DNA of 64,000 nucleotides from a virus. The translations under genes and the position numbers were made by a program. Positions 7,721 through 19,494 of the stretch are shown piece after piece. Each line of letters begins with the position of its first letter. Positions within the stretch are counted from its first letter, which is position 1. Below the pieces are notes generated by a model. The model was not told the DNA's origin and did not search any database. It saw nothing but the letters and a program-made list of their open reading frames with translations. The DNA lies in the IMG/VR virus record IMGVR_UViG_3300017971_000185, positions 359,683-423,682 of that record. The stretch is one strand, 5' to 3'.

Positions 7721-7812
<92 letters not shown>

Positions 7813-7958
7813 GCGTATCCAACCGACTAAGCCCTACAAGCACTGTAGCGCGGTGGTTCGAATCCACCCTCCTCCACTCTACGGGGGAGTAGCTCAGAGG
7901 AAGAGCAACAGACATCCAATCTGTGTAAGCAGCAAACAGGCTTACCACTCGGATACGC
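7813..7958 (+). tRNA. candidate circularly permuted tRNA gene (3' half precedes 5' half)
   Basis: The upstream segment (about 7846-7875) is a tRNA 3' half. It has a T-arm GGTGG-TTCGAAT-CCACC, the acceptor 3' strand CTCCTCC, and A. After a 6-nt spacer (CTCTAC) comes a tRNA 5' half (7883-7925). That half has an acceptor 5' strand GGGGGAG, TA, a D-arm GCTC-AGAGGAA-GAGC, and an anticodon arm ACAGA-CATCCAA-TCTGT. The two acceptor strands pair 7 of 7 (one G.U). The flanks pair too: GCGTATCC (7813-7820) with GGATACGC (7951-7958), and nested inside them TAAGCC (7828-7833) with GGCTTA (7939-7944). This is the architecture of permuted tRNA genes known from algae and archaea. The apparent anticodon is TCC, but position 33 is A instead of U. 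The alternative is two decayed halves of tandem tRNAs; the nested flank pairing argues against that. Confidence 0.7.
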
Positions 7959-7991
7959 AACATTTTCACAACAACCCAAACCAAGAACCAA

Positions 7992-8418: not shown

Positions 8419-8490
8419 GCGTGTGTAGCTCAGTTGGCAGAGCATCAGCTTCCATGCTGAGGGTCGCGGGTTCGATCCCCGCCACATGCT
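8419..8490 (+). tRNA. tRNA-Gly(TCC)-like gene with a 6-nt anticodon loop
   Basis: Acceptor GCGTGTG/CACATGC, D-arm GCTC/GAGC, T-arm GCGGG-TTCGATC-CCCGC and discriminator T are all normal. The anticodon stem TCAGC/GCTGA encloses only six bases (TTCCAT). The neighbouring tRNA-Gly(TCC) has the same stem with CTTCCAA. Nucleotide 32 therefore seems to be missing and the anticodon is best read as TCC. Function is uncertain. Confidence 0.7.
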
Positions 8491-8509
8491 CGAAAGGAAG
8501 AACATGAAC

Positions 8510-8877: not shown

Positions 8878-9252
8878 ATGGCACAGATCACCAAAGAACA
8901 GGTCATTGACTATCTGGGGGCCCTCTCGCCTTCGGAAATGGCTATCCTCATCGAGAACCTGGAAGAGACGTGGGGCATGGAGATGTCCCGGCCAACTCAG
9001 CAAGCACCGAAGGTCGAGCAAGAGAAGGAGGAAGAACAGACGGAATTCGAGGTCATACTTGAGAGTTTCGGAGACAAGAAGATCGACGTGATCAAGACCG
9101 TTCGCCAGGAGAAGCCGGGGATGGGTCTCAAGGAAGCAAAGGAGTTTGTCGAGTCTGCGCCGGTTACGATCGGTGAGGCGCTCTCAAAGGAGGAAGCAGA
9201 GGAAGCCAAGGCCAAGCTGGAGGAGGCAGGCGCAACGATCACGATCAAGTAA
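8878..9252 (+). CDS. rplL: ribosomal protein bL12 (L7/L12)
   Basis: The 124-aa product has the two-part L7/L12 form. The N-terminal dimerisation helices are in ITKEQVIDYLGALSPSEMAI. An acidic hinge (about residues 44-54) follows. The C-terminal factor-binding domain is in EFEVILESFGDKKIDVIKTV and GLKEAKEFVESAPVTI. Bacterial L7/L12 is about 120 residues, so this looks complete. L7/L12 forms the ribosomal stalk that recruits EF-Tu, EF-G and IF2. A phage copy may replace the host stalk and favour phage translation. Phage-encoded bL12 genes have been reported from uncultivated viruses. Its stop codon is immediately followed by tRNA-Ala(GGC). Confidence 0.93.
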   Translation: MAQITKEQVIDYLGALSPSEMAILIENLEETWGMEMSRPTQQAPKVEQEKEEEQTEFEVILESFGDKKIDVIKTVRQEKPGMGLKEAKEFVESAPVTIGEALSKEEAEEAKAKLEEAGATITIK

Positions 9253-9331: not shown

Positions 9332-9390
9332 AGGGACGTAGCTCAATGGAAGAGTGCCGGAAGCTGCGGGTTCGAATCCCGTCGTCTCCA
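9332..9390 (+). tRNA. truncated tRNA lacking the anticodon arm
   Basis: Acceptor AGGGACG/CGTCTCC (first pair A.C), TA, D-arm GCTC/GAGT, T-arm GCGGG-TTCGAAT-CCCGT and discriminator A are present. Only GCCGGAAGCT lies between the D- and T-arms. A 72-nt tRNA with anticodon stem CCGG/CCGG would give exactly this sequence after a 13-nt deletion between the two CCGG copies. It cannot decode as it stands. Confidence 0.7.
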
Positions 9391-9404
9391 CAAAGGCAAG
9401 CAAC

Positions 9405-9962
9405 ATGAGGAAGGACAAACACACACGGACATCGAAGCTGTTGTCCATGCTTCTGCGCCATCGGCCAGAGGCCGCGGGTCTCGTGTTGGATGAGGCCGGC
9501 TGGGTTGGTGTGGATGAGTTGCTCGCGGGAATCGGGAACAAACGAGGATTCGAAGTGACTAAAGACTTGCTTCGGCAAGTCGTAGATACCAACAACAAGA
9601 GGAGGTTTGAATTCAACGAAGACGGGACCAAGATTAGAGCCAGACAAGGCCATAGCGTGCGTGTGGATCTGGGGCACGAAGCCCAGGAGCCGCCCGAGTA
9701 CCTGTACCACGGAACGGCAACTCGAAACCTCGCAGCGATTCGCGAGGGAGGGCTTCAGAAGATGAGCCGACACGCGGTTCATCTCTCACTCGATCTACCA
9801 ACGGCAACCAGTGTTGGATCTCGGCACGGGAAGCCAGCCATTCTCAAGATCCGGGCGAAGCAGATGCACGATGATGGCCACGTGTTCTACCTGACGGAGA
9901 ACAAGGTCTGGTACACCGACAACATCCCCGTCGCCTACATCATCTTTCCAGAGGACTCGTGA
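9405..9962 (+). CDS. kptA: RNA 2'-phosphotransferase, Tpt1/KptA family
   Basis: The 185-aa product matches Tpt1/KptA throughout. SKLLSMLLRHRPEAAGL (residues 10-26) gives the conserved Arg18-His19 pair. KRRFEF (about 65-70), YLYHGTATRNLAAI (about 99-112) and SRHAVHLS (about 121-128) supply the remaining Arg and the NAD+-binding features. The length is typical of bacterial KptA. Tpt1 removes an internal 2'-phosphate left at tRNA splice junctions by healing-and-sealing ligases. It transfers the phosphate to NAD+, giving ADP-ribose cyclic phosphate and nicotinamide. The start at 9405 is chosen over an upstream in-frame codon inside the truncated tRNA. The stop abuts tRNA-Ala(CGC). Its place among abnormal tRNA genes suggests a role in tRNA repair or splicing. 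Confidence 0.92.
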   Translation: MRKDKHTRTSKLLSMLLRHRPEAAGLVLDEAGWVGVDELLAGIGNKRGFEVTKDLLRQVVDTNNKRRFEFNEDGTKIRARQGHSVRVDLGHEAQEPPEYLYHGTATRNLAAIREGGLQKMSRHAVHLSLDLPTATSVGSRHGKPAILKIRAKQMHDDGHVFYLTENKVWYTDNIPVAYIIFPEDS

Positions 9963-16578: not shown

Positions 16579-17769
16579 TCAAGCCTCGTAGAGAGCCTCC
16601 ATGATCATTCCGATATTGGCCCAATCAAGGAGCCTCTGGTCGATGATGTCGTTGAGAGAGCGCACTTCTACATACGTCCGCTCTGTGTTCCCCGCGCCGA
16701 AGGACCGGCCCGATTGAGCCGTTTCGACGGCTTGTTGAAACTCCTCGCGGCGCAATTCGACCGTGTAGACGTGGGCCATGTGGGTGAGTAGCGTAGACAC
16801 CATTTGTCGAGGCCGCAAAGCGACGAAACGTCCAGAGGGGATTTTGAGACCCGTCTCTTCCTCTAGCTCCGCGGCAGCTACCTCCCAAGGATCTTCTGCG
16901 ACGTTGAAGCTGGAGCCGCCAGGAAGCTCGTGTACGAAGCCGTCAGCGGTTCTGGCTGGAGAGCGAAACTCTTTGATCAACAGAATGTGTGTTCTTCCCG
17001 TGAAGTATGTGTCGTCATCCCCCCACATTTCGTCTTGCCGATAATAGGCCACGATGGTGGAGATGTCCGTGCGCGAGAAGATAACTTCGTTTTCCTTGTG
17101 TCGTTTCTCGCTTTCGATCCAAACCTTGACCCACACCACGAAGCAGAAGAGAAACTGGCGGTTGGGGCCGACTCGGTATCGCCACAGAACCTCGGCATCA
17201 TCGAGTCTGTTTCCTGCCTCTCGTTGTGCTCGATACCAGGACTGAAACTGTGGAGCGTTCCACACGTCGATCGGGACGTTACGTTCGCCTCCCGTGCGCG
17301 GCGCCGGCTCTGCGAATTTGGCGACAGCGGCTTGAGCTAGCTCATCGAGGCTCGAAAACGGCGTGAGCCCTTGCTGTTGCTCGTAGAGCGTGTCAAGGTA
17401 GCGAGTCTTGGGCGCGCCATCGGGTCGTCCGTAGAGGAGCTTTCCAGAGGCGAGGAAGGCACCAAACTCTACGTTGGTCGAGAAGGCAGGCATCGTTTTC
17501 AGGTCACGCGGAACCCATGCGATGATGAGATCGGCTGCGTGAAGGAAACGCTGCTCCCAGCGAGTCTGGGTGGTGTAGTCGTGATCCCAGCTTCCATCTC
17601 CTGGCTCGGGGACGTAGACCATTCCATCGTAGCCCGCTCGATCCAGGGCATCGATCATGGCCGCGCGCCAGGATTCGCCGCCGGTCTCGGTACGAGGCGT
17701 GGGGCCTACCAGGAAGATAGACTTGGCGACGGTCTCAGGAGGTTCTTGGAGTGCGTAGATGATCTTCAT
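16579..17769 (-). CDS. nucleoside deoxyribosyltransferase-like / Nudix hydrolase fusion
   Basis: The 396-aa product has two parts. Residues 1-140 resemble the nucleoside 2-deoxyribosyltransferase-2 type fold: KSIFLVGPTPR, SWRAAMIDALDRAGYDGMVYVPEP, and ADLIIAWVPRDLKTMPAFST followed by NVEFG. Residues 240-390 are a Nudix hydrolase with the box GGSSFN...AAAELEEETGL. The catalytic glutamates are kept, but the usual Arg before the first Glu is Ala. A role in cleaving nucleoside or ADP-ribose-type products is likely from family knowledge. It is the last gene of the NAD operon. Confidence 0.75.
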   Translation of the reverse strand: MKIIYALQEPPETVAKSIFLVGPTPRTETGGESWRAAMIDALDRAGYDGMVYVPEPGDGSWDHDYTTQTRWEQRFLHAADLIIAWVPRDLKTMPAFSTNVEFGAFLASGKLLYGRPDGAPKTRYLDTLYEQQQGLTPFSSLDELAQAAVAKFAEPAPRTGGERNVPIDVWNAPQFQSWYRAQREAGNRLDDAEVLWRYRVGPNRQFLFCFVVWVKVWIESEKRHKENEVIFSRTDISTIVAYYRQDEMWGDDDTYFTGRTHILLIKEFRSPARTADGFVHELPGGSSFNVAEDPWEVAAAELEEETGLKIPSGRFVALRPRQMVSTLLTHMAHVYTVELRREEFQQAVETAQSGRSFGAGNTERTYVEVRSLNDIIDQRLLDWANIGMIMEALYEA

Positions 17770-17804
17770 GAGTGGAGTCCGGCATCGCGAGGATCTTAGC
17801 TAGC

Positions 17805-18800
17805 TCATTCGTAGAATTGCTCATACAGCTTGCTCCCAAGATCGCATAGGAAGTCGTAGCCGTGTTCTCCCTTGTCGTTGACGAGCTTGGCGACATCCTC
17901 CGGTATGCCCTTGAGTCCGACACGAGCGCCCGAGATTGCTCCGGCCATGGCAGCAGTGGTGTCCACGTCTCCACCCGGCGTGATGGATGTGATGATGGTC
18001 TCCCAAAACGACTCGGGCGTTTTCACGAAGCTGTAGAGAGCCCAGAGCACGGAAGAGATGACGTAGGGGCTGATCCCCGGCCACTTGTCGCCCTCTTGGA
18101 ACGTCCTGCACCACTCCACCACCGCATCGTCGCCCTCGTCCATCATCGTGGGGATCAGAAGAACGTAGTCGGCAAACCGGGGGTCGATCTTCTTGACGAC
18201 CGAGGAGACGGTCTTGAGGAACCGGAGCGGCTCGACTTCATCTACCTGCATTCCGAGAGCAACAGCCGAAGCGATGGCTGCGGCTCCAGCAGAGGCTTGA
18301 TCGGATTGGTGCGTCACGAACCCTTGGATCTTGGCCGCAGTGGCCAGAGACGAGAGCGTGGAGTCATAGAAAGCTAAGCCGATGGGAGCGGCTCGCATGG
18401 CTGAGCCATTGCCCGCGGATGGATGGGGCTCGCCAGAATGTTCCCAAGGGCACTTGGCCGCGAGACGCAAGGCAGCGTTCTTGGTTGCGTTACCGTAGCC
18501 GACCATGCGTTTGTTCTTGAACATGTCGGCAATGCGCTCACCCCAGGCTTCGGGGTCAAGGCTGCCATGCTCGACCAATGAGATTGCAAGCTCGCGTGTG
18601 AGTTGCGTGTCGTCGGTGTACTGACCGAAGTCGTACTTGTCTCGTATCTGGACGCCGCTGAACGCTCGCGGACGGACCATGTTCTTGATGTAGGGCTCGA
18701 CGCTCTCTGGCCCGTGTGCTTCGACAGGCGCTCCTACAGCGTCACCGACCGCACAGCCGATGAGACAGCCTTGGAATTGCTCGACAGTAGGCTCAGGCAT
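17805..18800 (-). CDS. ADP-ribosylglycohydrolase (ARH/DraG family)
   Basis: The 331-aa product carries the family's metal and ribose site motifs. They are GCLIGCAVGDAVGAPVE at the N-terminus, YTDDTQLT near residue 61, SAGNGSAMRAAPIG near residue 127, and the C-terminal GGDVDTTAAMAGAISGARVG. The length is typical. Members remove ADP-ribose from proteins, nucleic acids or small molecules using two Mg2+ ions. In this operon it could reverse defence-linked ADP-ribosylation or recycle ADP-ribose. It overlaps the NrtR-like gene by 8 nt. Confidence 0.92.
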   Translation of the reverse strand: MPEPTVEQFQGCLIGCAVGDAVGAPVEAHGPESVEPYIKNMVRPRAFSGVQIRDKYDFGQYTDDTQLTRELAISLVEHGSLDPEAWGERIADMFKNKRMVGYGNATKNAALRLAAKCPWEHSGEPHPSAGNGSAMRAAPIGLAFYDSTLSSLATAAKIQGFVTHQSDQASAGAAAIASAVALGMQVDEVEPLRFLKTVSSVVKKIDPRFADYVLLIPTMMDEGDDAVVEWCRTFQEGDKWPGISPYVISSVLWALYSFVKTPESFWETIITSITPGGDVDTTAAMAGAISGARVGLKGIPEDVAKLVNDKGEHGYDFLCDLGSKLYEQFYE

Positions 18801-19494
18801 TCACAATCCTGTAGAGAACACCGTGGCGTCCTCCGAGTGGTCGCTGCTTGCCAGTTTTGGTGATTCGGCCGTCTGACAACATGCGGTGGAAACGTTTGTT
18901 GAAGTTGGATCGGTCAAACTTCACGCCCTTGACAATCTCATGGACGCGGCGGAATTCGGCTTGAGTGAATTCTTCGGGGAGAAGGTTCGTGACAATTTGG
19001 GGCTCGTAGTCGCATTTGCCTCGGATGCGCTCCACGGCAACATCGAGGATCTTCATGTGGTCAAATGCGAGGGTTTCGAGGGAGGCAACGTCATGCCAAA
19101 TAGCCTCTACGGCATCATCTCCGCCTTTTCGTCTGACCTTCGCCATCAAGGTTGGAGGTACGAGTGCATAGTAGGCCACAGAGATCACCCGGCCTCGCGG
19201 ATCGCGACCCGGATCTCCGAAGGTGTAAAGCTGCTCTATGTAGACTTGGTAGGCGGAGAGGCCCGTTTCTTCCTCTAGCTCTCGTCTGGCAGCAACCGGA
19301 AGGCTCTCCCCTTGTTCGTTGTCGCCCTCGTTCTCTCTGACCACCTTGACGAAGCCTCCAGGGAGAGCGAGACGGTCTTTGAAAGGCGCCTTCCCTCGTC
19401 GGATGAGCAACACCTTGAGGGCCATGCCGTCGATGGTGAAGATCACCAAGTCAACGGCGTTGTCTGCCTTGGGGTAGTCGTATGTGTAGGGCAT
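18793..19494 (-). CDS. NrtR-like Nudix transcriptional regulator
   Basis: The 233-aa product has an N-terminal Nudix fold (LALPGGFVKVVRENEGDNEQ and then AARRELEEETGL, about residues 43-80). A C-terminal winged helix follows (FRRVHEIVKGVKFDRSNFNK and GRITKTGKQRPLGGRHGVLY). This is the layout of NrtR, the bacterial regulator that senses ADP-ribose and represses NAD-biosynthesis genes. A regulator of NAD genes inside an NAD operon fits. Whether it still hydrolyses a nucleotide cannot be told. Confidence 0.85.
   Translation of the reverse strand: MPYTYDYPKADNAVDLVIFTIDGMALKVLLIRRGKAPFKDRLALPGGFVKVVRENEGDNEQGESLPVAARRELEEETGLSAYQVYIEQLYTFGDPGRDPRGRVISVAYYALVPPTLMAKVRRKGGDDAVEAIWHDVASLETLAFDHMKILDVAVERIRGKCDYEPQIVTNLLPEEFTQAEFRRVHEIVKGVKFDRSNFNKRFHRMLSDGRITKTGKQRPLGGRHGVLYRIVNA

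Follow-up and report, generated by a model that had tools for sequence, protein, structure and literature searches.

Circularly permuted tRNA genes of bacterial viruses appear to be bounded by a conserved element seen as an insert in normal-order tRNA genes as well

In the transfer RNA (tRNA) island of a 497-kb virus, a gene that is very probably a real circularly permuted tRNA gene under selection lies within the stretch analyzed here, a 64,000-nucleotide (nt) window (positions 359,683 to 423,682) of IMG/VR record IMGVR_UViG_3300017971_000185. Its 3′ half precedes its 5′ half, and the helices that pair its leader with its trailer (P1 and P2) are, as judged by comparing the viral records, parts of a conserved element of about 55 nt that also interrupts tRNA genes of normal order. 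At the level of sequence, the gene order, the single cloverleaf, the conservation of P1 and P2, and the recurrence of the arrangement are established; from these we infer cutting, joining, a circular intermediate, aminoacylation, and use in decoding. Our overall explanation, which we consider probable though far from secure, is that the element acts like a tRNA intron, closed in normal tRNAs and opened at P1 in permuted genes.

Results

A Single Cloverleaf Spans Two Halves in Permuted Order

The initial annotation had described a tRNA 3′ half upstream of a 5′ half with a 6-nt spacer between them, and a direct reading of the letters agrees (Table 1). The same reading bears out the pairing it had proposed: the acceptor strands match at seven of seven positions, one of them G·U, the outer flank helix has 8 bp (7813–7820 with 7951–7958), extendable to 9 bp via U7812–A7959, and the inner helix has 6 bp, set off by a 7-nt and a 6-nt internal loop. 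The anticodon loop, CATCCAA, does carry A33 and read UCC, or it carries U33 and reads CCA if shifted; the corresponding loop of the ortholog in L169 (see below) is ATCCAAA and was called Trp. ARAGORN called no tRNA between 7811 and 7992 of the window. RNAfold retained P1 and all tRNA arms and preferred local hairpins (−55.9 kcal/mol) over the inner helix (−48.0 kcal/mol); relatives favor the inner helix, and the local hairpins were rejected as the functional fold because they are not conserved in L169.

A second IMG/VR record is identical to the window sequence across 19,959 bases, making a simple assembly error unlikely. Copies of the same virus in other samples are identical and thus carry no comparative signal. 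The tRNA-Ser(UGA) gene ends in CCA immediately before the first base of P1′; processing of this tRNA alone would therefore make the 5′ end of the transcript.

Pairing Is Maintained by Compensatory Changes in Related Viruses

The ortholog of the window gene in L169 (3300022719_000283, a 619-kb virus) keeps the permuted order, and its P1 is formed by GCGCATCC/GGATGCGC in place of GCGTATCC/GGATACGC, with a compensatory T-A to C-G change. Orthologs of two other permuted genes of the host virus (genes B and C in Table 1) were found in four other viral records, where P1 and P2 are 100% paired, and across six orthologous permuted genes five flank pairs changed on both sides. The initial annotation had looked to relatives for compensatory changes in the flanks, and these were found; relatives with two complete tandem tRNAs at this place, which it had named as evidence to the contrary, were not.

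To survey other viruses, IMG/VR was scanned with two degenerate patterns and a structural parser. This gave about 22 permuted tRNA genes and about 30 interrupted ones from about 29 viral records, many of which are 150 to 620 kb long; a few of the 22 permuted candidates are chance matches (L330, for example, is a tandem tRNA-Val). The search pattern included ACAAGC, CTC, and the T-loop, so the invariance of these is partly built in; it left out P1, P2, and the pairing of the acceptor and anticodon stems, and the structural parser did itself select for pairing. In the acceptor, T-, D-, and anticodon arms of 21 permuted genes, 95.6% of cells are paired compared to 68.6% after shuffling, with 109 double-change cells versus 26.9. 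The acceptor is 96.6% paired in these genes and double changes occur at all 7 bp; permuted genes had been selected with acceptor complementarity among the criteria, but not the variety of pair types. For the gene-end helix P1, a score of at least 20 was reached by 18 of 22 permuted candidates, picked for this comparison without regard to flanks, versus 7.1% of 462 mismatched leader/trailer pairs. The interrupted form likewise showed 71 double-change cells versus 27.7 and a covariation score of 0.669 versus 0.274 after shuffling.

In 8 of 22 permuted genes CCA follows the discriminator directly, where about 1/64 would be expected; a functional tRNA 3′ end at this place would predict it. When the halves were rejoined, with the junction chosen permissively, ARAGORN called a tRNA in 21 of 22 cases. 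The reading as a permuted tRNA gene is supported by one cloverleaf across the halves and by compensatory flank changes, and the gene is one of a family.

The Same Element Bounds, Interrupts, or Encloses tRNA Genes

Further genes in the record of the host virus (G000), whose island holds more than 40 ARAGORN tRNAs, were sought via T-arms lying outside ARAGORN tRNAs. Besides the window gene, three permuted tRNA genes came to light, together with at least two interrupted tRNAs of normal order and two enclosed tRNAs (Table 1). More T-arms outside ARAGORN tRNAs lie at G000 313830 and 335988. The G000 copies of the element share one layout: P2, a few bases, CACUC, P1 … P1′, 7 to 11 bases, P2′, 1 to 2 bases, and ACAAGC. 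In interrupted genes P1 is a closed hairpin; permuted genes begin and end in the P1 loop. Enclosed complete tRNAs were also seen among the collected loci, in L122 (3897), L148 (6895 and 7169), L042, L248, L123, and L087 (535). In this form the leader reads P1′-P2′-ACA[AC]GC and the trailer P2-CTC-P1, with ACA[AC]GC overlapping the tRNA 5′ end.

The element lies mostly between the anticodon arm and the T-arm. Its sites include the variable region, where it may precede or follow a complete variable-arm hairpin, the D-loop (G000 342.9–343.05 kb), the acceptor ends, and the anticodon loop at about position 38/39 (L087, L089, and L117). No Rfam family matches the element. With a covariance model built on the interrupted form, many further copies were recovered in the collected loci, including ACACGC or CCUCG variants. 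A weak closed copy at L143 2965–3020 (record 3300028177_000001) lies between two tRNA genes, not within one.

A strict pattern modeled on the window gene gave zero matches in IMG/VR, a BLAST search of named phages with the window gene matched only single arms of ordinary tRNAs, and no element was found by pattern in LR745208, a 485-kb phage with a DNA polymerase 46% identical. In bacterial genomes, the normal-order pattern gave 118 matches, among which the parser found no credible element; they were mostly ordinary tRNAs with ..UACAAGC, for example tRNA-Val.

Cultured Gordonia Phages Carry a Second System of Permuted tRNA-like Genes

BLAST with a permuted gene matched cultured Gordonia phages (Ronaldovirus), among them the Gordonia terrae phages Keelan, Fryberger, and Ronaldo. 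These three and Ziko each carry two adjacent, unannotated permuted tRNA-like genes. Paired changes between phages are seen in their acceptor stems (CGTGCCC/GGGCACG versus CGTGGCC/GGCCATG) and anticodon stems (ATCCA/TGGAT versus ATTCA/TGAAT). ACCA follows the first acceptor strand, the break lies in the anticodon loop, and the flanks are long and conserved, unlike the huge-phage element. These phages offer a laboratory host for a second permuted system.

Neighboring Features of the tRNA Island

Other features were noted. Within the tRNA island, the virus encodes a bacterial small signal recognition particle RNA at L004 4768–4860 (G000 349767–349859; Rfam score 57.7 bits, cut-off 40). Within the window, a degenerate tRNA without an anticodon arm (9332–9390) scores 44 bits, exceeding the Rfam tRNA cut-off, and a tRNA at 8419–8491 has a 6-nt anticodon loop, TTCCAT, for which the ARAGORN anticodon call is only "cc". 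A ribosomal protein L7/L12-like gene (8878–9252) also lies within the island. On the minus strand of the window at 16579–19494, a cluster of NUDIX/deoxyribosyltransferase, ADP-ribosylglycohydrolase, and NrtR-like NUDIX genes suggests NAD or ADP-ribose metabolism.

Table 1. Positions of the window gene, its element, and related features (window numbering unless another record is named)
Feature	Position	Strand	Remarks
P1′, leader strand of closing helix, UGCGUAUCC	7812–7820	+	9/9 pairs with 7951–7959
P2′, UAAGCC	7828–7833	+	From the letters; P2 covaries in relatives
ACAAGC motif of element	7836–7841	+	In nearly all copies; partly ascertainment (part of search pattern)
Start of 3′ tRNA piece (variable region)	7842–7851	+	Putative boundary
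T-arm, GGTGG-TTCGAAT-CCACC	7852–7868	+	From the letters; 100% paired in 21 permuted genes
Acceptor 3′ strand CTCCTCC (7869–7875) and discriminator A7876	7869–7876	+	From the letters; 21-gene alignment
Spacer CTCTAC between mature 3′ and 5′ ends	7877–7882	+	No CCA after discriminator in window gene
Acceptor 5′ strand, GGGGGAG	7883–7889	+	From the letters; 21-gene alignment
D-arm, GCTC-AGAGGAA-GAGC	7892–7906	+	G18 and G19 present; from the letters; 21-gene alignment
Anticodon arm, ACAGA-CATCCAA-TCTGT	7908–7924	+	A33; UCC, or CCA if shifted as in L169
P2, GGCUUA	7939–7944	+	From the letters; ortholog in L169
CACUC motif of element	7946–7950	+	Conserved across copies; partly ascertainment
P1, trailer strand, GGAUACGCA	7951–7959	+	From the letters; RNAfold; mismatched-pair control
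Sequence in each half of window gene			5′ half ..UCUGU..; 3′ half ..GGUGGUUCGAAUCC..
KptA/Tpt1 RNA 2′-phosphotransferase gene	9375–9962	+	PF01885, 166 bits; same tRNA island
Permuted gene B	G000 about 349416–349556
Permuted gene C	G000 about 349613–349772
Permuted gene D	G000 about 342901–343050		Break in D-loop
Interrupted gene E, normal order	G000 about 348847–348975		Insert between anticodon arm and T-arm
Interrupted gene F, normal order	G000 about 349146–349275		Insert between anticodon arm and T-arm
Complete tRNAs enclosed at acceptor ends by opened element	near G000 349004 and 349304		L178 53 and L096 5565
Keelan pair of permuted tRNA-like genes	MN586014 61549–61939		L417 1250–1640; relatives Fryberger, Ronaldo, Ziko, Volt, Guey18

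Discussion

The permuted tRNA genes described in algae and archaea have bulge-helix-bulge junctions and, in algae, a circular intermediate (Soma 2014, PMC3978253). The viral genes resemble those of red and green algae and a few archaea in having the 3′ half first, a short acceptor spacer, a paired leader and trailer, and varying junction sites. However, the bulge-helix-bulge is not their general junction, a strict one occurring in 3 of 22 viral genes versus 3.5% of mismatched controls; no EndA family member was found in the viral records, conserved CACUC and ACAAGC loops are present instead, and the genes belong to bacterial viruses whose genomes also hold a closed, intron-like form. The permuted two-piece transfer-messenger RNA (tmRNA) of cyanobacteria and alpha- and beta-proteobacteria also shares the permuted order, a spacer at the acceptor ends, and ends held by helices. 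The window gene, in contrast, has a full D-arm and anticodon arm and gave no ARAGORN tmRNA call and no complete tmRNA match; the Rfam cyano_tmRNA match at 7852–7891 is weak (26 bits, cut-off 70). Normal and permuted intron forms around a tRNA exon also recall tRNA genes that carry group I introns, as well as engineered permuted intron-exon constructs, but the element is only about 55 nt long and no Rfam group I match was found at E ≤ 1 in window positions 1–30000, L003, or L004. In keeping with the initial annotation, which knew of no established phage case, no report for phages or bacteria was found in the literature searched, which excluded subscription papers and most preprints. A huge-phage survey used tRNAscan-SE and ARAGORN, and its main text is without the words intron, permuted, or RtcB (PMC7162821).

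In the route we propose, the leader and trailer would fold into P1 and P2, the element would be cut at its base, near ACAAGC, and the tRNA halves would be joined into a circle. The acceptor spacer would be cut by RNase P and 3′ processing, freeing the 5′ end and the CCA end. Excision and joining are suggested by the element sitting at many different places, as introns do; whether the halves would indeed be joined by its excision we regard as evenly balanced. Slightly below even, in our estimate, stands the broader proposal that the element represents a new class of small intron-like RNA, possibly self-processing, in huge-phage tRNA genes, such that the genes with an opened P1 would be naturally occurring permuted intron-exon tRNA genes that mature by a route other than bulge-helix-bulge splicing, and the first of their kind from bacterial viruses.

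Candidate processing enzymes are present in part of the family. RtcB ligates ends produced by many cleavage reactions. It was found in 11 of 29 element-bearing records, and in 9 of the 11 such records that are at least 288 kb long, and often lies within about 5 to 40 kb of the elements. KptA, a possible accessory to maturation of the permuted genes, is encoded in 7 of the 29, this virus included; among KptA relatives (L027–L030), tRNAs occur on only two of four contigs.

Several observations weigh against excision and joining. RtcB is present in 4 of 16 control records and was not found in G000; since, in addition, RNA-repair genes close to tRNA islands may have other roles, the RtcB link is only suggestive. 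The tRNA-splicing endonuclease EndA was found in none of 41 viral records, and no clear T4-type or other RNA ligase was found in G000, although the PF09511 control matched nowhere, so that one may yet be encoded. Element-to-arm distances vary and revealed no constant splice boundary, and where the element surrounds a complete tRNA at the acceptor ends no joining is needed. Finally, a 7-nt anticodon loop with U33 is present in only 18 of 51 element-bearing tRNAs, making a normal elongator role doubtful; the remaining loops have A33 (11), G33 (3), or C33 (2) or are of 8 nt (14) or 6 nt (3). By comparison, U33 is found in 169 of 177 ARAGORN tRNAs of the same loci, a set in which canonical loops are favored by the program.

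A two-piece tRNA that needs no ligation is the main rival, though we consider it unlikely. Here the acceptor spacer would be cut by RNase P and 3′ processing, and P1 and P2 would hold the pieces together, much as in two-piece tmRNA, and the element of normal-order genes would be merely an extended variable arm. Only host enzymes would be required; RtcB was not found in G000; closed and opened forms coexist, as do one-piece and two-piece tmRNA; P1/P2 is long and stable; and the variable region, into which most insertions fall, is tolerant of length. This arrangement suits the commonest site but not the anticodon-loop sites, and inserts there, in the D-loop, or beside a complete variable arm would be hard to fit in a working tRNA. 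Moreover, the conserved letters of the internal loops exceed the needs of a clamp.

It is improbable that these tRNA-like RNAs are other than ordinary translators, although most have non-U33 or 8-nt loops. Examples are Tyr CGGTAAA (in several genes), Glu TATTCAA, Asp CAGTCAA, and Asn CAGTTAA, with some unusual loops (CGTGTAAA, CATGTAAA) conserved from phage to phage. Such loops may reflect weakened decoding or protection from tRNA-cutting defenses; phage tRNAs with altered anticodon loops and defenses that cut the variable loop are on record (PMC10264068, PMC13096335). A nontranslating role, however, leaves the gene permutation unexplained and is compatible with either joining or two-piece maturation, and the comparison set comes from ARAGORN, with its bias to canonical loops. 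Decay of two tandem tRNAs into halves whose pairing is inherited or accidental is highly implausible: a degenerate tRNA does lie nearby (9332–9390) and tandem duplication is a plausible origin, but the comparative data contradict it, with compensatory conservation in many viruses and CCA in place in 8 of 22 genes.

Permuted tRNA genes were previously tied to eukaryotic and archaeal splicing machinery; bacterial viruses now show a conserved family of them, whose junction element is a different one. That element, together with its closed form, implies an unknown tRNA maturation route or a two-piece tRNA, and it may prove categorically new if its excision is shown. As tRNA finders overlook this class of phage tRNAs, its existence bears on how phage tRNA repertoires are counted and on ideas about how phages evade tRNA-cutting defenses.
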